Of a DNA stretch of 64,000 nucleotides, positions 7,870-58,776 are shown piece after piece. A model generated the notes under the pieces. The model was not told the DNA's origin. It ran no database searches and saw only the letters and a list, made by a program, of their open reading frames with translations. Source of the DNA: Halobacterium wangiae (GTDB lineage Archaea > Halobacteriota > Halobacteria > Halobacteriales > Halobacteriaceae); the NCBI RefSeq assembly GCF_021249345.1, contig NZ_CP089588.1, forward strand, positions 806,001-870,000. The letters are read 5' to 3'. Numbering within the stretch: the first letter of the stretch is position 1; the number at the start of each line of letters is the position of its first letter. Made by a program: the position numbers and the translations under genes.

Positions 7870-9450
7870 TCACAGCGCGGGCTGGGCCACGCGGGCGGTC
7901 GTCGTGTTGTTCTGGCGGACGACGTAGCGCTTGCCGGCCTGGCCCTGCAGGAGCGCGTCCACCGGCGCGTGCTCGTCGGTGAGCACGGGGACGTCGCCGG
8001 TCTCGACCTCGCTGGGGTGGGTGTACCGCGTGACGGCGCCGGTGAGGTCGACGCCGACGTCCCGGGTCCCGGCGAGCGCTTCGAGTTCGGACTGCGACCA
8101 CGACTGCCCCTTCGTCGCCACGATCTCGATGTTCTGGAGCGCGTCCGTGTCGCTCGTCGGGAACGCGTAGACGTGCGGGAACGCCCGCTCCATGGTCTTC
8201 ATCTCGGCGCGGAAGAACGCCGAACCGGCACCCGAACGCGCGCTGATGACGTTGGCGACCAGCGCGCCGTCGTCGTCGAGTTTCGACGCGGCGAGCTCCA
8301 TGAACTCGACGGTGGTGAGGTGGAAGGGGACGGCGTCGCGCTGGTAGGCGTCGAGCACGACGAGGTCGTACGTGTGGTTCGTCTGCTCAAGGAACCGGCG
8401 ACCGTCCTCGACGTGGACGTCGAAGTTCGGGCCCTCGCTGACGCCGAAGTACTCCTCGGCGGCGTGCACGACGCCGGGGTCGATCTCGACGACGTCGACG
8501 GTGACGTCGTACTCCTCGGCGAAGCGCTTCGGGCCGGAGAAACCGCCGCCACCGATGAACAGCACCCGGTCCACGTCGTCCTGCCACAGCATCGGGACGT
8601 GGGCGTACTTGCTGTACTCGAAGACGTAGCCGTCGCGGTCGTCCGTGTACATCGCGGAGTGGCGGACGCCGTCGAGGTACAGCGTGCGCACGCCGTCGGC
8701 CTCCCCGACGCGGAGTTCGGAGTAGGCGGTCTGGTCCTCGTAGAGGGTGTCCTCGCCGACGTTCACGCCGTAGACGCCGACGACAGTGGCCGAGAGCAAC
8801 AGGAGCGCGGTCACGCCGAGTTTGCCGACGGCCCGCGGCGTCGGCTCCGCGACCAGCAGCGCGGCGACGAGCAGCAGGCCGCCGAACAGTGCCGCGATGA
8901 CGGTGACCTCGAGCGCGGGGATGAGGACGAACGTCGTGCCGAACGTGCCGATGATGCTGCCGATGGTGCCGAGCGCGTAGACGCGGCCGGACGCCGCTCC
9001 CCTGCTCTCGGCGGCCGACAGCTCCGCGCCGTACGGACTCACCAGCCCCACGAAGAACGTCAGGGGGCCGAAGAGGACGACGATGGAGGGGACTGCGGCG
9101 TAGCGAGTGGGTATCGGCAGCGACGCGGAGAGTTCGACCACCGTCTCGCCGCCCACCACGACGGCGGCAGCGAAGGCCGCGGACGCCGCGAGGACGGAGA
9201 CGAGCAACGCGGGCGACGCGTACTTCGCGGTGCGTCCGCCGACGGCGTACCCGACGCTGAGCGCGGTGAGGAAGACGCCGATGACGCTCCCCCAGACGTA
9301 GATGCTACCCCCGAAGGTCGGCGTGACGAGCCGACCCGCGAGCAGTTCCAGCCCCATGCTGGCGACGCCGGCGGTGAACACCGCGGCTTCCGCACGAGTG
9401 AGGCGAGGGACCCGTGACACGCACGCACCTTGCGGTGGCGTTCCCTTCAC
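7870..9450 (-). CDS. Membrane-anchored spermidine-synthase-like protein
   Basis: About 526 residues in two parts. Residues 15-230 hold roughly seven hydrophobic segments (start of first: FTAGVASMGLELLAGR). Residues about 240-520 are a spermidine synthase-like aminopropyltransferase fold, with LFIGGGGFS as the nucleotide-binding glycine loop and VVEIDPGVV as the acidic ribose-binding strand, then DLVVLDAYQ. Both start options are GTG: 9450, or 9420 (VSRVPRL), which fits homologues from memory slightly better. Such fusions occur in haloarchaea; real polyamine synthesis activity is unproven. The integrated element starts about 55 bp upstream. Confidence 0.85.
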   Translation of the reverse strand: MKGTPPQGACVSRVPRLTRAEAAVFTAGVASMGLELLAGRLVTPTFGGSIYVWGSVIGVFLTALSVGYAVGGRTAKYASPALLVSVLAASAAFAAAVVVGGETVVELSASLPIPTRYAAVPSIVVLFGPLTFFVGLVSPYGAELSAAESRGAASGRVYALGTIGSIIGTFGTTFVLIPALEVTVIAALFGGLLLVAALLVAEPTPRAVGKLGVTALLLLSATVVGVYGVNVGEDTLYEDQTAYSELRVGEADGVRTLYLDGVRHSAMYTDDRDGYVFEYSKYAHVPMLWQDDVDRVLFIGGGGFSGPKRFAEEYDVTVDVVEIDPGVVHAAEEYFGVSEGPNFDVHVEDGRRFLEQTNHTYDLVVLDAYQRDAVPFHLTTVEFMELAASKLDDDGALVANVISARSGAGSAFFRAEMKTMERAFPHVYAFPTSDTDALQNIEIVATKGQSWSQSELEALAGTRDVGVDLTGAVTRYTHPSEVETGDVPVLTDEHAPVDALLQGQAGKRYVVRQNNTTTARVAQPAL

Positions 9451-9503: not shown

Positions 9504-9518
9504 TCGCACTACTTTTCC
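9504..9518 (+). repeat. attL direct repeat, 15 bp
   Basis: TCGCACTACTTTTCC, identical to 18856-18870. It lies in the intergenic space between the spermidine-synthase-like gene and the integrase and is interpreted as the left att core created by integration. Confidence 0.8.
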
Positions 9519-9541: not shown

Positions 9542-9591
9542 GAGCACGTATATTGTTGCCTGGCGAACGACAGAATCGAGGACCCCGAATA

Positions 9592-10929
9592 ATGTCGAAA
9601 AATCCACGCGAGAAGTTCGAGCGGGAACGCGGACGTTGCGAGGACATCGAGGACGACGACGTGCGAGAGGCCGTGCTCGCGTACGGCGACGCCATGGACC
9701 GCGAGTACGACTACGAGAACGCCCCCAAGCCCACCTCTACCGGCGCAGTCACGCGAGAGAGCAAATCGAACGGCACCGCGGCCATCTACCTCTCGGCAGT
9801 GCGCTCCGCCCACGACCGCGGCCTCAACCTCCTCGAAGCCGATGCCGAGACGGTCAACCACTTCATGCTGGACCTCGTGAACGACCCCGACGACCGCCGG
9901 TACGGCCTCGTGGACGAGGACTACGAGGACAAAATCCAGAAGTCGTCCGGCCAACGGTGGCAGTCCGCCCTCATCGGGTTCTACCGCTACTGCACGGAAC
10001 CCGGCGTCAGCGACGACCGCCCGACCGTCGCCGTCGAGTGGCCCGCCGACGACATCCACATATTTCCCGACCGGTCGGACCCGAAATACGACGAGGACGA
10101 CATGCCCGAGCAAGCCGACCTCGACGCGCTCCGGGAAGCCTGCCTGTACTCGCAGAACACGCACCGGGACCGTGCGCTCCTCGAACTCGCCGCCGGTACC
10201 GGCCAGCGCGTCTACGCACTCGTGACCCTGAAGGTCAAACACGTCCGTCTGGAGGATGAGGTTCCGCACATCCTGCTGAACCCCGAGATAGACGGCGACG
10301 GCGACAAGAACGCCATCGAGTATACGGGGCGATTCAAACCCATCGTCTCCGACATCGGCCCCATCCGCGAGTGGCTGCGGCACCACCCGCTCCGGGACGA
10401 CGACGTGCGCGCCAGATACGACGGCGTGCCCGAGCAGTTCGAGGACTGCTACCTGCTCATCGGCGCACTCAACCACAAGGACACCGACCCCACCAGTCAC
10501 TGGGACGCTGACGCTGCCCGCGACATGCTCGTCCGCCGCAAGGAGAACACCAAGACCATGCCCGGCGTGAAGACCGTGGACGTGCCCGTGAACCCCCACA
10601 ACTGGCGTCACTACGCCTACACGCGGTCGAAGGACCTCGCGATTCCCGAGAGCAAGCGCCGGTCGGTGTTCGGGTGGGCACGCGACTCGAACATCGGCGA
10701 ACGCCTCTACGACCACAAGGCGAACACGGACAACTCGCGGGATTTCGCCGACGCGTGGGCGGAGACGTTCGGGACCGAGGGCGGCACGAGCGTCGCCGAG
10801 CAGGTCGTCGGGGACGCCGCACTCGCGGACCTCTCCCCCGAAGCCACCCGGGCACTCGTCCGCGAACTCGCGACCGACGAGACCGCCATGCGGGAACTCG
10901 CCGCCGCCGTGCGCGAGGCCGCCGAGTAG
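9592..10929 (+). CDS. Tyrosine recombinase/integrase
   Basis: 445 residues of the XerC/D-like phage integrase family. Catalytic residues can be placed: Arg206 in TGQR, His336 and Arg339 in HNWRH, and nucleophile Tyr373 in RLYDH. An N-terminal SAM-like DNA-binding domain (about residues 50-160) and an acidic C-terminal tail follow the usual layout. The ATG at 9592 is chosen because the frame upstream runs through the att region and reads as non-coding. The gene sits directly beside attL, as is usual, and presumably drives integration and excision of the element. Confidence 0.92.
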   Translation: MSKNPREKFERERGRCEDIEDDDVREAVLAYGDAMDREYDYENAPKPTSTGAVTRESKSNGTAAIYLSAVRSAHDRGLNLLEADAETVNHFMLDLVNDPDDRRYGLVDEDYEDKIQKSSGQRWQSALIGFYRYCTEPGVSDDRPTVAVEWPADDIHIFPDRSDPKYDEDDMPEQADLDALREACLYSQNTHRDRALLELAAGTGQRVYALVTLKVKHVRLEDEVPHILLNPEIDGDGDKNAIEYTGRFKPIVSDIGPIREWLRHHPLRDDDVRARYDGVPEQFEDCYLLIGALNHKDTDPTSHWDADAARDMLVRRKENTKTMPGVKTVDVPVNPHNWRHYAYTRSKDLAIPESKRRSVFGWARDSNIGERLYDHKANTDNSRDFADAWAETFGTEGGTSVAEQVVGDAALADLSPEATRALVRELATDETAMRELAAAVREAAE

Positions 10930-11685: not shown

Positions 11686-12528
11686 CTACGTGAACTGTAA
11701 CCAGTAGGTGATGACGTTCAGCGACTCCCCCCAGTACGAACTTAGTACCATGAGGAGCGCTAACTTTACGGTGGCACTCGGACCCACGTGCTCCCAGGAG
11801 TCTGCCCAGTGGTTCAGTGCTTCCTCGGCTCGTGCACGAACGTTCTCCGAATCCTCCTGCCAGAAGACCTTAGCTGGCCGGATGACGTAGTAGATGAACC
11901 CCAATGGGGCAAGTAGGAGGACGACGACGTGCATCACGCCCATCGCCGGGAGCCAACCGACGATGGTCACGAGGAACAAGAAGCCTGTAATCCACGCAAG
12001 CCCGATAGCCTGCCATAAGAGCGTGAAACACCGATTCAGGTAGATTAGCGCCTCCGTCACGCGCTCATCATTCTCGAGAATCCACTCCACTAACAGGTCC
12101 TCCTCCGCGTCTGCCTCCGTCTCGGTTTCTACCGCTCTCCTTCTCGAAGTCGGCAGCGGGCTATCGATTTTCATTATCCAAATCGTATTCATCCCTGCCC
12201 CGTACAACAGGCCCACAGTAATCATCGCTAACATGACTATGACGGCCAGCGAGTCGTTGACAATCTCGGGGGCCTTCGCAGCGACACCGTTCTGGAAGAC
12301 GAGCGGCGAGTTCAGCAACTCGTACAACTGTCCGTTGTTTACGATAGCGGTGTACACCTCCGTGCCGGCGAGCCCGAGAACGAGGGCGGAGGCAGCAATC
12401 AGGAGCCGAAAGAACTTCTGGCCCTGTTCCTGGGCGTGACGGAACGTCTCGGCCTGCTGGGTGAGGACGAGTTCGCGTTGCGACTCGGACAACTGCCGCA
12501 CGTCCTCCCGCGTGAAGTGTCGGTCCAT
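11686..12528 (-). CDS. Polytopic membrane protein of the element
   Basis: 280 residues from the ATG at 12528 (MDRHFTREDVRQ). The frame continues upstream but there reads as antisense of the neighbouring zinc-ribbon gene. The N-terminus is a charged, Gln/Glu-rich amphipathic helix. Hydrophobic segments lie near residues 42-62, 90-112, 165-190 and 195-215, with a possible fifth at the C-terminus. An acidic loop separates the second and third. Codon use is less GC-biased than the chromosome, in keeping with transfer. No family recognised. Confidence 0.75.
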   Translation of the reverse strand: MDRHFTREDVRQLSESQRELVLTQQAETFRHAQEQGQKFFRLLIAASALVLGLAGTEVYTAIVNNGQLYELLNSPLVFQNGVAAKAPEIVNDSLAVIVMLAMITVGLLYGAGMNTIWIMKIDSPLPTSRRRAVETETEADAEEDLLVEWILENDERVTEALIYLNRCFTLLWQAIGLAWITGFLFLVTIVGWLPAMGVMHVVVLLLAPLGFIYYVIRPAKVFWQEDSENVRARAEEALNHWADSWEHVGPSATVKLALLMVLSSYWGESLNVITYWLQFT

Positions 12529-12706
12529 ATACACGGCAGAAATCCGGCCAGCAAATGTCTTTGGGACGCTACGGCAGTCGTCCTCCAGCCCTCGCCGGAA
12601 GAAGATATGGGGTGGTGCGGGCAGCGACGCCCGAATCTCCGCTCCGCCCAGTGCGAGAGTCTCTTCTTCCGCAGGATTATGGGGGCACGACTCAGTCCAG
12701 AGATAC

Positions 12707-12841
12707 CTACTGCTCAGTGAAGCGGAAGTTAGTGCCGCCACACCCAGGGCAGGCATCAACGCGCCTTGGAGTGGGGTCGGTCGTATTCGTGCCGAGCAGC
12801 ACGAACCCACAGTCCCGACAGGCGATGTACTCAGACACCAT
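12707..12841 (-). CDS. Tiny zinc-ribbon protein (44 aa)
   Basis: Starts MVSEYIACRDCGF and ends with CPGCGGTNFRF; the two CxxC pairs (residues 8-11 and about 32-35) should bind one zinc. It begins 2 bp after the stop of the HalOD1 gene on the same strand, so the two form an operon. A similar protein (CRACG and CPDCGG) is encoded at 13971-14123 behind a DUF7344 gene. Probably a small regulatory or nucleic-acid-binding ribbon; function unknown. Confidence 0.7.
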   Translation of the reverse strand: MVSEYIACRDCGFVLLGTNTTDPTPRRVDACPGCGGTNFRFTEQ

Positions 12842-12843
12842 GG

Positions 12844-13257
12844 TCACCGGGCCTTAGTCGACTCCTCTGGGGGTGGTCGAATACAGATGATACCGTCGGC
12901 GTGGACCGTTACCTCGTAGTCAACGTACGTCACGGAGACGTGCATCTCTCCGAGTGCTGCCTCCGTTATCATCAGGTCGACCAGCGCGTCGTGTGCGTCT
13001 GAGCCAATGTCGTAGTAGACTGGGGGCAACTTCAACGGCTCCGTGTTCGAAACCGTCGCAACAGCGGAGACGACTTCCAGTGCGACGCACTCAGGATGGC
13101 TCCCGAGTTTCGCCCAGTACGTGTTTGTTTCTGCGTCGTAGTGGAGCGCCTCTCGCTCATTGGTTTCGCCCCATTCGGTATTCGCTACATCCGGGGTCGG
13201 AGGGAGAGCGTGTGGTACTGGTGGTATTCCCGTGCCTATTCGGTTGTTCATCACCAC
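12844..13257 (-). CDS. HalOD1 output-domain protein
   Basis: 137 residues. Residues about 60-128 match the haloarchaeal HalOD1 output domain: a VVSAVATV helix, the PLKLPPVYYDIG motif, an Asp-Ala-Leu helix, then VTYVDYEVTVHADGIICI beta strands. The N-terminal 55 residues contain an extra stretch (HYDAETNTYWAKLG). HalOD1 proteins are thought to be signalling outputs, but their mechanism is unknown. It is divergent from a second HalOD1 gene at 13438-13707 and precedes a zinc-ribbon gene by 2 bp. Confidence 0.82.
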   Translation of the reverse strand: MVMNNRIGTGIPPVPHALPPTPDVANTEWGETNEREALHYDAETNTYWAKLGSHPECVALEVVSAVATVSNTEPLKLPPVYYDIGSDAHDALVDLMITEAALGEMHVSVTYVDYEVTVHADGIICIRPPPEESTKAR

Positions 13258-13970: not shown

Positions 13971-14123
13971 TCAGTCGTCGGTGCGGACAATCGTCCCCGT
14001 GTCGTTGTGCTTGAACTCCACGCCCCCACAGTCCGGACACGCTTCAACTCCCGGCACAAACTCGCCGTCCTGCTTCTTGCCTCGGGTGAACTCGCCACAC
14101 GCCCGGCACATCAGCATCTCCAT
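13971..14123 (-). CDS. Tiny zinc-ribbon protein (50 aa)
   Basis: Starts MEMLMCRACGEF, with a second pair in CPDCGG; the two CxxC pairs indicate one bound zinc. Its ATG overlaps the stop of the upstream DUF7344 gene by one base (TAATG), so translation is coupled. It resembles the ribbon at 12707-12841 in the CRxCG and CPxCGGxxF positions. An in-frame upstream start at 14159 would overlap the DUF7344 gene more and is less likely. Confidence 0.7.
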   Translation of the reverse strand: MEMLMCRACGEFTRGKKQDGEFVPGVEACPDCGGVEFKHNDTGTIVRTDD

Positions 14124-14467
14124 TACGCCACCACGCCGCGAGTGAGATACTGCGACCATTCGTCCGCTGGGACTACTGTGGGAGCGCCCCAGTACCGGAC
14201 CGTGGCTGACCGGGCGTCGTAGTCGATGAGGCCCTGGTCGGCTAACTTCGGCAAGTCACGGTGGTGGAGGTTCTTCCGGACGTGCTCGCGCTCGGTGTCG
14301 GCCTGCTGCGTGGCGAGGAACGCAGTGAGGTCGTCCAGCGATGCCGTGGCCTCCCCCGTCCGCTCAAAGTAGGCCAGCACGAGCCGTCGCTGGTCGCTCG
14401 CGAGCGCCGCGTGCAATCGACTCATGGTCGCCGTATCGCCCCCCGTCGTGAAGGGGTGAGTGGACAT
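14123..14467 (-). CDS. DUF7344 winged-helix protein
   Basis: 114 residues. The block from ASDQRRLVLAYF through LDDLTAFLA and the VRKNLHHRDLPKLADQGLIDYD segment match the haloarchaeal DUF7344 winged helix, where the HHxxLPKL helix is the recognition element. It is a likely DNA-binding regulator. The promoter box CTTATAAAA on the minus strand (about 14526-14534) is roughly 60 nt upstream, so the message has a short leader. Followed by an overlapping zinc-ribbon gene. Confidence 0.8.
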   Translation of the reverse strand: MSTHPFTTGGDTATMSRLHAALASDQRRLVLAYFERTGEATASLDDLTAFLATQQADTEREHVRKNLHHRDLPKLADQGLIDYDARSATVRYWGAPTVVPADEWSQYLTRGVVA

Positions 14468-14554: not shown

Positions 14555-15223
14555 TCACCGGAAATCCGCTGCCGAGGAGAGCAACGCCTGTTTGAGGACC
14601 TTCTCGTTGCCGCGGCGAATCCGATTCGAGACGGCCTGCTCGGAAATCCCGAGTTTGTCGGCGAGGTCGGCGAGTGAGGTCCCCCGGGGCGTCTGGAAGT
14701 AGCCCTCCTGGAGCGCCAAGACGAGCGCCTCGCGCTGGTCCTGGGTGAGGTCGAACCGGTGGCCGAACTTCGTCTTCTCGGTGAGCGTGTACGACCGCTC
14801 GATGTGGATGTCGATGTCCTGCCCAGTGCAGAGATTGTAGAACGTCGAGAGTGCGTCGTGGTCGCGGAACCGAACGCGGAATGCCCAGCCGTTATTTCCG
14901 AAGCCTTCGAGGATAGCACCACCGCTCTGGGTGATGATTTCCAGCAGACTGAACGGCTCGTCAGCCCACTCGACGCGGTAGAGCACCCAGTCGTCGGCCC
15001 GGTCGAGGGCGTCGAACCTGCCGATGACGGGATTCTCGTTGATGTGCTTCTCGAACGCCTCGTAGTTCTCGCCATGCACCCATAGGAAAGGGATGACTGC
15101 ATCGCCGGTCGGGACGAGGCGTTCGAGTTCGATGCGCAGCCCTGCCTGCCCCGCCGGCTCCGCCAGCACCTCTCCGAGCAGGAACTCCTCGTCCGGAATC
15201 GTGAACTCAACGATGACACTCAT
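14555..15223 (-). CDS. Bat-type HTH (HTH-10) transcriptional regulator
   Basis: 222 residues. The N-terminal 150 form the bacterioopsin-activator-like ligand domain that begins MSVIVEFTIPDEEFLLGEVL. The C-terminus is the HTH-10 DNA-binding domain: LTQDQREALVLALQEGYF, TPRGTSLADLADKLGISEQAVS and a final NEKVLKQALL helix. Such regulators control diverse haloarchaeal genes, and this one may have been brought in as element cargo. A nested inverted repeat directly before the start codon (15229-15263) could be its own operator. Confidence 0.88.
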   Translation of the reverse strand: MSVIVEFTIPDEEFLLGEVLAEPAGQAGLRIELERLVPTGDAVIPFLWVHGENYEAFEKHINENPVIGRFDALDRADDWVLYRVEWADEPFSLLEIITQSGGAILEGFGNNGWAFRVRFRDHDALSTFYNLCTGQDIDIHIERSYTLTEKTKFGHRFDLTQDQREALVLALQEGYFQTPRGTSLADLADKLGISEQAVSNRIRRGNEKVLKQALLSSAADFR

Positions 15224-15390: not shown

Positions 15391-16359
15391 TCAGTCCGAC
15401 TTGCCTTTCTTCCGCGCCACCGCGTTCCGCCGCTCCTCCTCGGCCTCCGCGTACCGGGCAACGAGCAGCGGGTATCGCTGTTCAACCAACGTCGCCCGCG
15501 CCTCGTACGCCGACCGGCCACCCACGGGAACCTCCTCGTCCGGCTCCTGCGGGAGCCCTGCCTGTTTTCGTTCCCACGCCGACCGCCCGCCAGCGGGCCA
15601 GTCGTCCTCGTCGTCGCCCGCGGCGTTCGACCGGGAGAACGGCCCCGGGACCGCCGCGTAGTTTACGCGCTGCTCGTCGTCGGCCTCCGCCTCCTTCCGG
15701 GCCGCCCACGAGGACCGCGTCCCCGTCGCCACGTCCGCGTTCGTCGTCGGGTCCGCCTCCTCGCCGCCGTCGTAGATATACCGGGGGTCCGCGTCCACCG
15801 CCGTCTCGTTCTCCCGCCTGACAACCTCGGGGTCCACCCCCCGGACCCGCGCCGCCGCGTGGTAGCAGAGTGCGTCTATGCAGTCGCACTCCTCGGGCCG
15901 CCACCCCACGACGTGGGCCGAGAGGAACACGCCCTTCTCCTTCTCCGGTATCTCCGTCCCGTCCTCCTTCAGGGCCGCCACGGCCGCCTCACGCTCGGCC
16001 GCGCTCTTGAAAACGCGCACCTCCTCGTCGTCCTCGTCGGTCTGGTCGACCGCGTGCTCGCCGTCGTGCTCGCCGTAGTCATTGTGGGTGTGCTCGTGCT
16101 CGTGCTCGTGCTCGTCGTCGTTCATGGAAGTAGTGGTCTGCTGGTCGCTGTCGTTCGCCGTGCTCGCCGCCCTGTCCGCCTCGCTCTCCGTGTCCGCGCC
16201 TGGGTCGTGCTCCTCGTCGCCGGTCGCCGTGTGAACGGTGCCGGTTCCGCACCCGCAGCCGCAGTGCGTACGAAGCGGGCCGACCGACTCCCCGCGTGCG
16301 GCTGCTATTGCTCGCGCCTGACCCAGCGACGGGGGCGTGTGCTCCTCGCCGTCAGTCAT
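15391..16359 (-). CDS. Acidic His/Cys-rich hypothetical protein of the element
   Basis: 322 residues. Notable stretches are a Cys-Gly cluster HCGCGCGTG (about residues 32-40), a His-Glu run EHEHEHEHTH (about 83-92) with more His-acidic residues after it, and a CDCIDALCYHAAARVRG segment near residue 165. The C-terminal third repeats GGRSAWERK / GGRSAYEAR and TRSSWAARKE, an internal repeat of about 10 residues. Metal binding is suggested. The start overlaps the upstream gene by 8 bp. No family recognised. Confidence 0.75.
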   Translation of the reverse strand: MTDGEEHTPPSLGQARAIAAARGESVGPLRTHCGCGCGTGTVHTATGDEEHDPGADTESEADRAASTANDSDQQTTTSMNDDEHEHEHEHTHNDYGEHDGEHAVDQTDEDDEEVRVFKSAAEREAAVAALKEDGTEIPEKEKGVFLSAHVVGWRPEECDCIDALCYHAAARVRGVDPEVVRRENETAVDADPRYIYDGGEEADPTTNADVATGTRSSWAARKEAEADDEQRVNYAAVPGPFSRSNAAGDDEDDWPAGGRSAWERKQAGLPQEPDEEVPVGGRSAYEARATLVEQRYPLLVARYAEAEEERRNAVARKKGKSD

Positions 16360-16672
16360 CGTCGCTCGCCTCCTCGGCCCCGTCGCTCTCAGCGCTACCA
16401 GGCGCGCTCTCAGTACCCTCCGACTCGCCCGCCGTGTGGGAGTCGCCGGTCGGCCCCGACTTCGCCTCGTGGGCTTCGCGGGCCTCCTTGGCCGCGCGGA
16501 GCCGCTCCAGATACGCGTCGGCAGCGCCGGGATGTGGTTCCGGCTCGCCGTTGTCCCTCGCGTGGCAGTTCCGTAACTGGAACATGTACAGGTCGCTCAC
16601 GGCAACGTCCTCGTAGGACGCGTCGTACGTGGCCTCCAGGTCCTCGACGCGCTCGGTGAGGTCCCGACTCAT
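16352..16672 (-). CDS. Acidic helical hypothetical protein
   Basis: 106 residues, starting MSRDLTERVEDLEATYDASY. The first 70 residues look helical and possibly coiled (repeated Glu/Ala/Leu); the last 35 are a low-complexity Ser/Glu/Gly tail ending ASDDD. It overlaps both neighbours by a few bases in one minus-strand operon with Rep. Function unknown. Confidence 0.7.
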   Translation of the reverse strand: MSRDLTERVEDLEATYDASYEDVAVSDLYMFQLRNCHARDNGEPEPHPGAADAYLERLRAAKEAREAHEAKSGPTGDSHTAGESEGTESAPGSAESDGAEEASDDD

Positions 16673-16935
16673 CGCCGGACCCCGGGCGTCGCCGCGGGCT
16701 TTTCCTCCAAGGCCTCGATGCGCTCCCGGAGGTCGTCCATGTCCCGGTCCTTCAGCAGCCTGCGTTCTGCATTTGCGGCCTGCACGGTGAGCCGGTGGTA
16801 CTTGATGCGGATGTCCTCGCGCTCAACGTCTCGAATCCGTCCGTCGCCGAACGTCTTGTACCGCGCCTGCTCCCGGACCTCTCGCAGGTCCGCCAGTACG
16901 TCGTCTCTCTCTCGCCGTTCGTCGTGTTCCGTCAT
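16669..16935 (-). CDS. Small charged coiled-coil protein of the Rep operon
   Basis: 88 residues from the ATG at 16935 (MTEHDERRERDDV). A GAGG tract 7-10 nt before the ATG could act as a ribosome binding site. The sequence is almost entirely charged helix with an LRERIEALEEK heptad near the end. The frame stays open for a long way upstream through a 12-bp tandem repeat, but no start there gives a credible protein. Function unknown. Confidence 0.65.
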   Translation of the reverse strand: MTEHDERRERDDVLADLREVREQARYKTFGDGRIRDVEREDIRIKYHRLTVQAANAERRLLKDRDMDDLRERIEALEEKPAATPGVRR

Positions 16936-16958
16936 TTTTCGTATCCTCGTTTTCGTCC

Positions 16959-17006
16959 TTCTCGTGCTCGTTCTCGTGCTCGTTCTCGTGCTCGTTCTCG
17001 TGCTCG
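16959..17006. repeat. Four perfect 12-bp tandem repeats
   Basis: TTCTCGTGCTCG is repeated four times without mismatch between rep and the 88-residue gene. Because the unit is divisible by three it keeps the frame, and on the minus strand all three frames are open through it (Thr-Arg-Thr-Ser, Glu-His-Glu-Asn or Ala/Arg repeats). It may be an iteron, or part of an unstable coding microsatellite. Confidence 0.85.
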
Positions 17007-17144: not shown

Positions 17145-18707
17145 CTACCCTCGCACCACCGGAGGCGGCTTCCCTCGCGCCACCACCGTAGCACGCACCC
17201 CGAACCCGCCACCGACCGCGGACACCACCACCTCGCACACCGGAGCATCCACAACCACGACCTCGCCCTCGACCGGGGACTCGTCTACGTGCTCCGTCAC
17301 CGTGTCGTCCACCGCGGCCAGCACCGCCGGGTCCGACGCACCGCGAATCGCCGGCACCGAATCGGGCGCGTCCGCCCACGACGGCTTCGGCACCACGCGA
17401 GTACACGGCAAGGCCCAGAAGAGCGCCCCCACCCGCGCCGCTGCGGGATGCACGTCCACACCCTCGACGCCCGTCACGTCCACCGGCAGGTCCGGCCCCC
17501 GACCCGGCTCCACCTCCACGTCCCCCAGCGCGCCGTGCGCGTCCGCCATCGCCCGCCGCTCCCCCGCATCGAGGTCCGCCGCACTCGCGAGCGCGTTCGC
17601 CCCCTTCGCCAGATACGCCGCCGGCGAACACCCGTCCGCGTCCTCCGGGGCTGCATCCGCCCACGTCCACGCCTCCGAGGATGCGCCCGGCCCCGTCGCG
17701 GTCGCGCGTAGCGGCTGCACCTCCACCTGATGCCCGCGACCCCGATGGGTCGCCCAGTAGTCCTTCAGGTCCGCCCGGTGCTCGACCAGCGCCGCCGCGT
17801 CCACCCCGAACACCACTACGTGGACGTGCGGGAGTCCGCGCGCCGAGACGTCCAGCACCCAGAGCACCGGCGGCCGCCCCGGCAAGTCCAGCACCCGCTT
17901 CACCTTGCCCTTGAACAGGTCCACGTCCTTCGGGAGTGACTCCGCCGCCTCGTAGAGACTCCCGCACCACCCCTCCGCGGTCGTCAGCGTCACGACCGCC
18001 GCCTCCAGCACGCCCGCCTCGGCCGCCGCCGCGAACGAATCCAGTACCCGGTCGCGAGTGGCTAACGCCCTCGACAGCGTGTTGTACTTCGAATCCGTCC
18101 GCACCTCTGCCGGTCCCCGCTCGTGGCCCAGCCGCTTCGCCGCCCAGTCACCCAGCAGTCCCTCGTAGTCCTCGGCCGTATCCAGCGCCTCTCGCCGCTT
18201 CAACCGGCCGCGAGCGTTCGCCAGCGACTCCGACGCCGGTTCCGCCGCCGACTCCTCGGTGTCCGCTCCGTCCCTCGTTGGAGGGCTTTGCTTACTTGCT
18301 GTATTGAACTTCTCCGCGTCGTCGAGGAGTTCGAACGCCTGGAACGCCTCTGCCGTCGGGAACACCCAGCGTGGCCGGTTCCACGGGCGTTCCTGGGGGC
18401 CGATGCGTTCGATGCGTACCACGTCGTGGCGCGCCAGCGCGTCCGTGAAGTCCTTGAGGCGGTTGTAATCGTAGGTCGAGTTTCGGATGGCGTCGTGGTC
18501 GTAGAGATGCTTCACCAGCGCGGAGAACCGGACGCCGTAGCCGTCTGCTTCGACGATGCGACGGAGGGCAGCGATTCGGACTTCTCGGCGGGAGTCCTCG
18601 AACAGGTCCGCCCACGGGTACGATTGTGGTATTCGGCCGGGGTGTTGAGACACACCCCGCGCGTCCGCATCGTTCCCGCCGCAGTCGGAGACGCTCACGC
18701 AGCCCAC
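17145..18707 (-). CDS. Rolling-circle replication initiator (HUH Rep)
   Basis: 520 residues. The three rolling-circle motifs appear in order: VVTLTTA (motif I, about 238-244), LPHVHVVVFG with the metal-binding HVH at 294-296 (motif II, HUH), and YLAK at 365-368 with the nicking Tyr365 (motif III). Residues about 40-120 look like an N-terminal winged helix (FSALVKHLYDHDAIRN), which could bind the origin. The C-terminal 140 residues have no recognised fold. GTG starts at 18698 and 18653 are alternatives to the ATG at 18707. It implies that the element can replicate as a circular plasmid. Confidence 0.88.
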   Translation of the reverse strand: MGCVSVSDCGGNDADARGVSQHPGRIPQSYPWADLFEDSRREVRIAALRRIVEADGYGVRFSALVKHLYDHDAIRNSTYDYNRLKDFTDALARHDVVRIERIGPQERPWNRPRWVFPTAEAFQAFELLDDAEKFNTASKQSPPTRDGADTEESAAEPASESLANARGRLKRREALDTAEDYEGLLGDWAAKRLGHERGPAEVRTDSKYNTLSRALATRDRVLDSFAAAAEAGVLEAAVVTLTTAEGWCGSLYEAAESLPKDVDLFKGKVKRVLDLPGRPPVLWVLDVSARGLPHVHVVVFGVDAAALVEHRADLKDYWATHRGRGHQVEVQPLRATATGPGASSEAWTWADAAPEDADGCSPAAYLAKGANALASAADLDAGERRAMADAHGALGDVEVEPGRGPDLPVDVTGVEGVDVHPAAARVGALFWALPCTRVVPKPSWADAPDSVPAIRGASDPAVLAAVDDTVTEHVDESPVEGEVVVVDAPVCEVVVSAVGGGFGVRATVVARGKPPPVVRG

Positions 18708-18828: not shown

Positions 18829-18841
18829 CGGGTATTCCGGG
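18829..18841 (-). repeat. Right 13-bp inverted repeat (candidate integrase arm site)
   Basis: CGGGTATTCCGGG, the exact reverse complement of 9529-9541. It lies 14 bp inside the right core repeat. See the left copy for interpretation. Confidence 0.65.
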
Positions 18842-18855
18842 TGGGCCAATCGGAT

Positions 18856-18870
18856 TCGCACTACTTTTCC
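18856..18870 (+). repeat. attR direct repeat, 15 bp
   Basis: TCGCACTACTTTTCC, identical to 9504-9518. It ends 28 bp before the ATG of the tRNA methylthiotransferase gene, where a leaderless haloarchaeal gene would have its basal promoter. Integration here would rebuild the same 15 bp in front of that gene. Confidence 0.8.
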
Positions 18871-18898
18871 TCGCGGGCCGCCAACGTGCTGCCGACGC

Positions 18899-20152
18899 AT
18901 GGCCCGCTACCACATCGAGACGTACGGGTGCACCTCGAACCGCGGCGAGAGCCGCGAGATCGAGCGGCGCCTCCGCGACGCCGGCCACCACCAGGTCGAG
19001 GGGCCGGACGCCGCGGACGTCGCCATCCTCAACACCTGTACCGTCGTCGAGAAGACGGAGCGCAACATGCTCCGTCGGGCCAAAGAGCTAGAGAGCGAGA
19101 CGGTGGACCTCATCGTCACCGGCTGTATGGCGCTGGCCCAGGGCGAGGAGTTCCGCGCGGAGGACGTCGACGCCCAGATCCTCCACTGGGACGAGGTGCC
19201 CGAAGCCGTCACGAACGGGGAGTGTCCGACGACGACGCCGGACGCCGACCCGATTCTGGACGGCGTCATCGGCATCCTCCCCATCGCCCGGGGCTGCATG
19301 AGCAACTGCTCGTACTGCATCACGAAGCAGGCGACCGGCCGCGTGGACTCGCCGCCGGTCGAGGAGAACGTCGAGAAGGCCCGCGCGCTCGTCCACGCCG
19401 GCGCGAAGGAGATCCGTATCACCGGCCAGGACACGGGCGTCTACGGCTGGGACAAGGGCGAGCGGAAGCTCCCCGAACTGCTCGAGCGCATCGCCACCGA
19501 GATAGACGGCGACTTCCGCGTCCGCGTGGGGATGGCCAACCCCGGCGGCGTCCACGGCATCCGCGAGGAACTCGCACGGGTGTTCGCCGAGCACGACGAG
19601 ATCTACAACTTCCTGCACGCGCCCGTGCAGTCCGGCAGCGACGACGTGCTCGCTGACATGCGCCGCCAGCACGAGGTCGCCCAGTACGTCGACATCGTGG
19701 AGACGTTCGACGACTACCTCGAGGAGTGGACGCTGTCGACGGACTTCATCGTCGGCTTCCCCACCGAGACCGACCACGACCACGAGCAGTCGATGGCGCT
19801 CCTGCGGGAGACCCGCCCGGAGAAGATTAACGTCACGCGGTTCTCGAAGCGCCCCGGCACGGACGCCGCCGACATGAAGGGGCTGGGCGGCCAGACGAAG
19901 AAGGACCGCTCGAAGGCGATGTCCGACCTGAAGATGGACGTCGTCGCAGAGGCCCACGAGGAGATGGTGGGCACCGAGCGAAACGTGCTCGTCACCGAGC
20001 AGGGGACTGGCGACTCCGTGAAGTGCTACGACGACAGCTACCGGCAGGTCATCGTCCAGAACGCGAGCGAGTACGGCCTCGAACCCGGGGACTTCGCGAC
20101 GGTCGAGGTCGTCGGTCACCAGACCGTCTACGCGTTCGGCGAACCAATCTGA
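18899..20152 (+). CDS. tRNA t6A37 methylthiotransferase (radical SAM)
   Basis: 417 residues of the MiaB/MtaB family, archaeal e-MtaB branch, which adds a methylthio group to N6-threonylcarbamoyladenosine at tRNA position 37. The N-terminal cluster-binding cysteines are Cys11, Cys47 and Cys76. The radical SAM CxxxCxxC is Cys133, Cys137 and Cys140 in RGCMSNCSYC. A C-terminal TRAM domain ends with GDFATVEVVGHQTVYAFGE. The ATG at 18899 is used because upstream in-frame sequence lies inside the integrated element. Confidence 0.94.
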   Translation: MARYHIETYGCTSNRGESREIERRLRDAGHHQVEGPDAADVAILNTCTVVEKTERNMLRRAKELESETVDLIVTGCMALAQGEEFRAEDVDAQILHWDEVPEAVTNGECPTTTPDADPILDGVIGILPIARGCMSNCSYCITKQATGRVDSPPVEENVEKARALVHAGAKEIRITGQDTGVYGWDKGERKLPELLERIATEIDGDFRVRVGMANPGGVHGIREELARVFAEHDEIYNFLHAPVQSGSDDVLADMRRQHEVAQYVDIVETFDDYLEEWTLSTDFIVGFPTETDHDHEQSMALLRETRPEKINVTRFSKRPGTDAADMKGLGGQTKKDRSKAMSDLKMDVVAEAHEEMVGTERNVLVTEQGTGDSVKCYDDSYRQVIVQNASEYGLEPGDFATVEVVGHQTVYAFGEPI

Positions 20153-58639: not shown

Positions 58640-58713
58640 GGGTCAGTAGCTCAACTAGGTAGAGCGCCACTCTGATAAGGTGGAAGTTTGCGGTTCAAAT
58701 CCGCACTGACCCA
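58640..58713 (+). tRNA. tRNA-Ile(GAT)
   Basis: Cloverleaf by eye: acceptor GGGTCAG/CTGACCC with discriminator A, D arm containing GCTC/GAGC, anticodon stem CCACT/GGTGG around loop CTGATAA with anticodon GAT, a short variable loop, and T arm TGCGG/CCGCA with TTCAAAT loop. The CCA end is not encoded. No intron visible. It is followed by an AT-richer interval. Confidence 0.95.
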
Positions 58714-58776
58714 CTCAGTTTCCTCTCGTTCACTGACCGAGTAGCGAGTTCTCTTTCGTGAGGATATTACCCTGAC

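Follow-up and report, generated by a model that had tools for sequence, protein, structure and literature searches.

The haloarchaeal integrase IntSNJ2 uses a tRNA gene, and the streptococcal SpyCI islands at mutL are an example of active lysogeny, in which integration silences the gene. Most haloarchaeal tailed proviruses sit in tRNA genes according to the survey PMC8651126, and a tRNA target for IntSNJ2 is implied by PMC8371274, which describes this integrase as restricted to haloarchaea and gives its core as both 13 and 14 nt. Halorubrum virus BJ1 has its att in the HMG-CoA reductase gene (PMC8371274), and among thaumarchaeal elements 14 of 68 lie in 3′-distal regions of protein genes and 15 of 68 in intergenic regions, with some casposons among them; in the worked example, the att is 13 bp long and the displaced gene end is replaced by one from the element that has a new stop codon (PMC6563490). 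The word ‘promoter’ is absent from the main text of PMC6563490, where a core-promoter site is undescribed, and in the open literature searched we found neither a promoter-sited archaeal attB nor a polD2 site.

The element analyzed here lies in a window of 64,000 nucleotides, the whole stretch of DNA that was analyzed, from a Halobacterium genome consisting of a single contig of 3,112,195 bp. Like the SpyCI islands it is inserted at the 5′ side of a housekeeping gene, with the difference that the probable core promoter of that gene is kept. It shares a haloarchaeal tyrosine integrase and a non-tRNA target with BJ1 (PMC8371274), although the two integrases have little similarity (28% over 98 aa, pairwise E=5e-4), and it resembles IntSNJ2, as described in PMC8371274, in its haloarchaeal restriction and short core. 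The thaumarchaeal elements, though from a different phylum, have in common with the group of the window element a short att and a replacement gene end (PMC6563490).

An integrated element with an empty site in a sister species

The element, which carries integrase and Rep genes, spans 9.35 kb and is bounded by an exact 15-bp direct repeat, TCGCACTACTTTTCC, whose right copy ends 28 bp before the ATG of a tRNA t6A37 methylthiotransferase (MTTase) gene. This is the spacing that an earlier sequence-only reading had given, and its placement of the site outside a tRNA is borne out as well, as the sole tRNA that ARAGORN finds in the window (58640-58714) is about 40 kb from the core. The relevant features are as follows.

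7870..9450, minus strand: fused MFS/spermidine synthase-like gene, the original divergent neighbour (NF037959; adjoins the MTTase in G008)
9504..9518, plus strand: attL core, exact repeat of attR; unique pair in the genome
9529..9541, minus strand: inner inverted arm CCCGGAATACCCG, probable integrase arm site, 10 bp inside the attL core
9592..10929, plus strand: tyrosine integrase, 445 aa (PF00589; catalytic motif alignment)
11686..12810, minus strand: ORF, 374 aa (Pfam, PHROG and NCBIfam: no match)
12844..13257, minus strand: HalOD1-domain protein (PF18545)
14123..14467, minus strand: DUF7344 protein (PF24035)
14555..15223, minus strand: BAT/HTH_10 regulator (PF04967, PF15915)
15391..16359, minus strand: ORF, 322 aa (no match)
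16352..16672, minus strand: ORF, 106 aa (no match)
17145..18707, minus strand: putative rolling-circle Rep of 520 aa (PF23343 at E=0.00073, a weak match below the cut-off)
18829..18841, plus strand: inner inverted arm CGGGTATTCCGGG, probable integrase arm site, 14 bp inside the attR core
18856..18870, plus strand: attR core, exact repeat, also the BRE/TATA-like probable core promoter of the MTTase (orthologue promoter matrix)
18871..18898, plus strand: host DNA between core and MTTase ATG, 23/28 identical to the G008 empty site
18899..20152, plus strand: MTTase, the target gene (TIGR01578; single match in the genome)

A search of the whole genome at up to one mismatch finds the core twice, at the two element ends, whereas the reversed-pattern control gave 0 matches in the same genome. 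The two arms form a perfect 13-bp inverted repeat to which the integrase may bind, and core and arms together reach a joint score of 28, against a 99% quantile of 23.35 for 766 pseudo-sites (maximum 61); the only other loci above the 99% null are L052 and L061. The attL core faces the integrase gene, with a gap of 73 bp to its start.

The MTTase scores 560.8 bits against TIGR01578 (cut-off 314.7) and is present in 12 of the 13 Halobacterium genomes searched. In G008, a sister species whose MTTase is 96% identical to that of the window, the site is empty and both element flanks adjoin upstream of the gene, with 90.5% identity over 1,474 bp for the left flank and 93.8% over 1,302 bp for the right. 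The flanks meet at TCGCACgACTTTTCC, which has one core mismatch to the window, where both copies are alike. Direct repeats and an empty site in a relative confirm, as far as sequence comparison can, that the 9.35-kb stretch is a site-specific integrated element. A repeat of only 15 bp might have arisen by chance and mark no att site, but this is refuted by the G008 empty site, and with the inverted arms and the genome uniqueness also against it, its probability is practically nil. Integrases near the MTTase in G291 and G223 were considered as the same event and rejected, being XerC-like genes beside an intact MTTase promoter with repeats of at most 10 bp.

With 28.2 bits against PF00589 (cut-off 27.1) and the catalytic residues R206, H336, R339, W362 and Y373 present in an alignment with 13 homologues, the integrase can be classed as a tyrosine recombinase. 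Inspection of the DNA by eye shows a His-x-His stretch, GLPHVHVVVFG, in the putative Rep. Of the 391 genomes of the class, 6, including that of the window, have relatives of this protein at E<=1e-10, and in G036, G241 and G348 these share a 20-kb stretch with an integrase homologue. We recognized no virion genes in the element, which is most likely an integrated plasmid-like element. Short tandem repeats are found inside it at 16959-17006 and 16090-16115 of the window (TTCTCGTGCTCG and GTGCTC).

The conserved block upstream of the methylthiotransferase gene

The sequence before the MTTase contains a TTTT about 31–44 bp from the ATG in all 58 orthologues compared, the window included. Among 80 named haloarchaea, a set that shares some species with the 58, TTTT lies 20–50 bp before the ATG in 79 (the exception being L230), compared with 105 of 4,000 random 30-nt windows (2.6%). 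The promoter consensus of 56 orthologues, with the window and G008 left out, is gAACCGTCGCGCTTTTGCCCGCGG. Relative to TTTT, whose columns are conserved by construction, conservation amounts to 0.11–0.13 bits per base at −70 to −30, 0.86 bits at −12 to −1 and 1.52 bits at 0 to +7, and the att core spans −9 to +5 of this block. When the window was scanned with the 56-orthologue matrix, attR ranked first on the plus strand and second when all 127,880 positions of the two strands were considered, a match that is partly by construction since the matrix is anchored on TTTT. The top match and several others sit 26–34 bp before start codons of long ORFs. The core itself reaches a modest 5.1, versus 20.1 (sd 5.3) for the orthologue members. 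Haloferax has TTWT as its TATA box motif, and 72% of its transcripts are leaderless (PMC4983044). Given the conserved TTTT block, its spacing to the ATG and the Haloferax motif, the att core is best read as the probable BRE/TATA region of the MTTase promoter, in agreement with the earlier proposal that it coincides with the basal promoter. A bacterial promoter scan was set aside as uninformative for archaea.

Because attL also scores well with this matrix (8th of 127,880 positions on both strands) and faces the integrase from 73 bp away, the core could double as the integrase promoter in attP and attL, with integrase binding at the arm 10 bp downstream causing repression. We consider this very unlikely, as inspection of the sequence shows a separate TATA-like TATATT at about 9550-9555, closer to the integrase start.

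The promoter overlap might also be incidental, with the integrase recognizing a sequence that lies in a safe gap between divergent genes and promoter function having no role in that choice. Several positions of the core are changed in the MTTase promoters of other Halobacterium genomes, and a 21-bp extended site with at most 3 mismatches precedes the MTTase, within the genus, only in the window genome (G000) and G008, both of which would suit such an overlap. The coincidence of the core with the best-conserved stretch before the ATG argues against it, and overall we judge an incidental overlap somewhat improbable, with the targets of related integrases, described below, adding to its side of the balance.

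Target sites of related integrases

The window integrase forms a lone long branch in the tree, with a best identity of 36% over 373 columns. Of the 391 genomes of the class, 82, counting that of the window, contain a match at E<=0.001. Direct scans of genome_contigs and viral_contigs found no relatives, and tblastn against 50,697 phage records returned two HRTV-27 records only. We examined 40 homologous loci, two further G228 stretches and four Rep-bearing stretches; three of the latter also have an integrase, and among these an att was assigned in G036 only. The resolved sites are listed below.

L050: att in prsW (core-plus-arm score 22)
L051, L058, L076, L078: att in the polD2 3′ end
L052: att in S27ae (score passes the 99% null)
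L056: att in a GST-type gene (short core; basis is gene context)
L061: att in an unnamed 109-aa ORF (score passes the 99% null)
L062 (G278): att in the sdhB 3′ end (short core; basis is gene context)
L074 (G003): att in the 5′ part of TYW1 (2904-2917 and 12185-12198)
G036 (L143): att in the msrA 3′ end (7983-8016 and 16909-16942)
G228: att in a tctA-like gene

All 12 resolved homologous sites are in protein-coding genes and 0 in tRNA genes, a habit that holds for resolved sites only, since 28 of the 40 loci have no assigned att, including G323 and G280, whose integrases group with that of G228; some of these loci are probably larger than the 20 kb fetched. For polD2, the cores of L051 and L078 are short and assigned by gene context, the L058 core lies outside its best-scoring pairs and L076 rests on the rebuilt peptide alone, while the sdhB of L062 (iron-sulfur subunit) was named from Fer2/Fer4 domains and its neighbour. 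In the seven of the 40 loci that contain tRNAs, ARAGORN places none closer than ~1.6 kb to the integrase start. The premise of the sequence-only reading that tRNA genes are the usual haloarchaeal target agrees with the tailed-provirus survey (PMC8651126), to which the group of the window integrase is an exception. The same reading had named homologous integrases in unrelated sites as an observation that would tell against its account, and the homologues do occupy many different protein genes.

In five targets (polD2, S27ae, GST, msrA and TYW1) the gene is rebuilt by a variant that the element carries; at TYW1 the first codons come from the element, with ...HTAAQACGWTKNALTEGRSC preceding YKHAFYGI. 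In G228, an element of roughly 60.7 kb, present twice, simply disrupts the target gene. No homologue among the 12 resolved sites is promoter-sited, and this use of coding sequence favours an incidental overlap in the window, as does the inclusion in the nearest-relative group of G228, which breaks its tctA-like gene outright.

Several loci show features of their own. In G003, of the same genus, the element supplies a divergent N-terminal coding part to TYW1, a radical-SAM enzyme of tRNA position 37. One integrase sub-group sits in the 3′ end of polD2, which encodes the large subunit of the replicative DNA polymerase D, and supplies a new C-terminus; in L051, DKNRPSTIADFM replaces DKNKQGSIADFM, and the left flanks of L055, L065 and L082 are a polD2 3′ end as well. 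The G036 element (L143) has a 34-bp core and, at 8.9 kb with integrase and Rep, is similar to the window element in size and gene pair. The sdhB cores of G278 (L062, 3081-4840) enclose 1.75 kb with little beyond the integrase, a possible integrase-only mini-element. Identical integrases at 581223 and 641965 of G228:C1, 60.7 kb apart with a shared upstream core, are probably a tandem double provirus. In the virus HRTV-27, a piece of a peptidase M3 gene end adjoins the integrase; the annotated hypothetical gp35 (L132, 2579-2908) matches this PepF-like end and is probably the gene-rebuilding part of attP.

Proposed integration at the core promoter and its probable consequences

We consider promoter-regenerating integration at the MTTase core promoter the likely explanation of the locus as a whole. 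A plasmid-like element with a circular form of 9,352 bp and a tyrosine integrase of its own would have recombined its attP with an attB of 15 bp, the BRE/TATA core promoter of the MTTase. As attP and attB would both carry the core, crossover would leave the MTTase with a full core promoter at attR, now bordered upstream by element DNA, while another copy of the core would lie at attL, oriented towards the integrase. The layout of the intergenic region would be kept, with Rep replacing the spermidine-synthase gene as divergent neighbour, and we recognized no element gene reading into the MTTase.

The sequence-only reading had correctly anticipated that integration swaps the upstream host DNA for element DNA, as the flanks are contiguous in G008 and split by the element in the window. 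Specifically, the element supplies the 11 bp upstream of the attR core (−20 to −10), which score 3.3 with the matrix versus 4.4 for the displaced host sequence in the rebuilt attB; the same stretch scores 1.0 in G008 and on average 4.7 (sd 2.5) in the orthologues. The attR stretch lies above 97.8% of random windows, with 2.2% reaching its score, so that a fit resting on 11 bases could be a chance match at about 2%. Since the core promoter is kept at attR and the upstream bases from the element fit the consensus, the sequence suggests that basal MTTase transcription is probably kept after integration. For the spermidine-synthase gene, integration leaves 53 bp of the original upstream DNA, counted from the ORF start adopted here.

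The same reading went further and proposed that the swapped upstream region changes MTTase expression, which could make the element a reversible regulatory switch as in active lysogeny. Everything beyond the core is indeed replaced by element DNA, and the divergent neighbour is now Rep in place of the spermidine-synthase gene; Rep is the nearest element gene and is oriented away from the MTTase. Nothing points, however, to a conserved regulator site that could be lost, because the orthologue sequence at −70 to −30 is unconserved and, of the 12 genus loci compared, G008 alone has the left-flank gene beside the MTTase. With the conserved block being the core itself and the adjoining element bases fitting the consensus, changed expression is possible but finds no support in these comparisons, and we regard a switch as unlikely.

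Under promoter-regenerating integration, the window site looks like a promoter version of the gene-end-rebuilding habit of related integrases, a loose analogy since the window integrase is a lone long branch with at most 36% identity; the window element replaces no coding sequence. One could speculate that a class of archaeal integrases lands in conserved housekeeping genes, as others do in tRNA 3′ ends, and carries a replacement, which here would be the core promoter, with attP as a promoter mimic. We find this generalization doubtful; if it were true, the MTTase here and TYW1 in G003, both hit on the 5′ side and both radical-SAM enzymes of tRNA position 37, would hint at selection for a gene class.

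Reports of archaeal elements integrated into protein genes and into intergenic regions are already in print, and the core-promoter site is a variant of this kind. The site of the window integrase would be a core promoter, neither a tRNA nor a gene end, which suggests that integration can be promoter-neutral. The locus also draws attention to a group of haloarchaeal integrases that uses conserved protein genes (polD2, S27ae, sdhB, msrA and TYW1) as targets and often rebuilds them, and because this group lands in protein genes, provirus and plasmid searches limited to tRNA genes would miss such elements.
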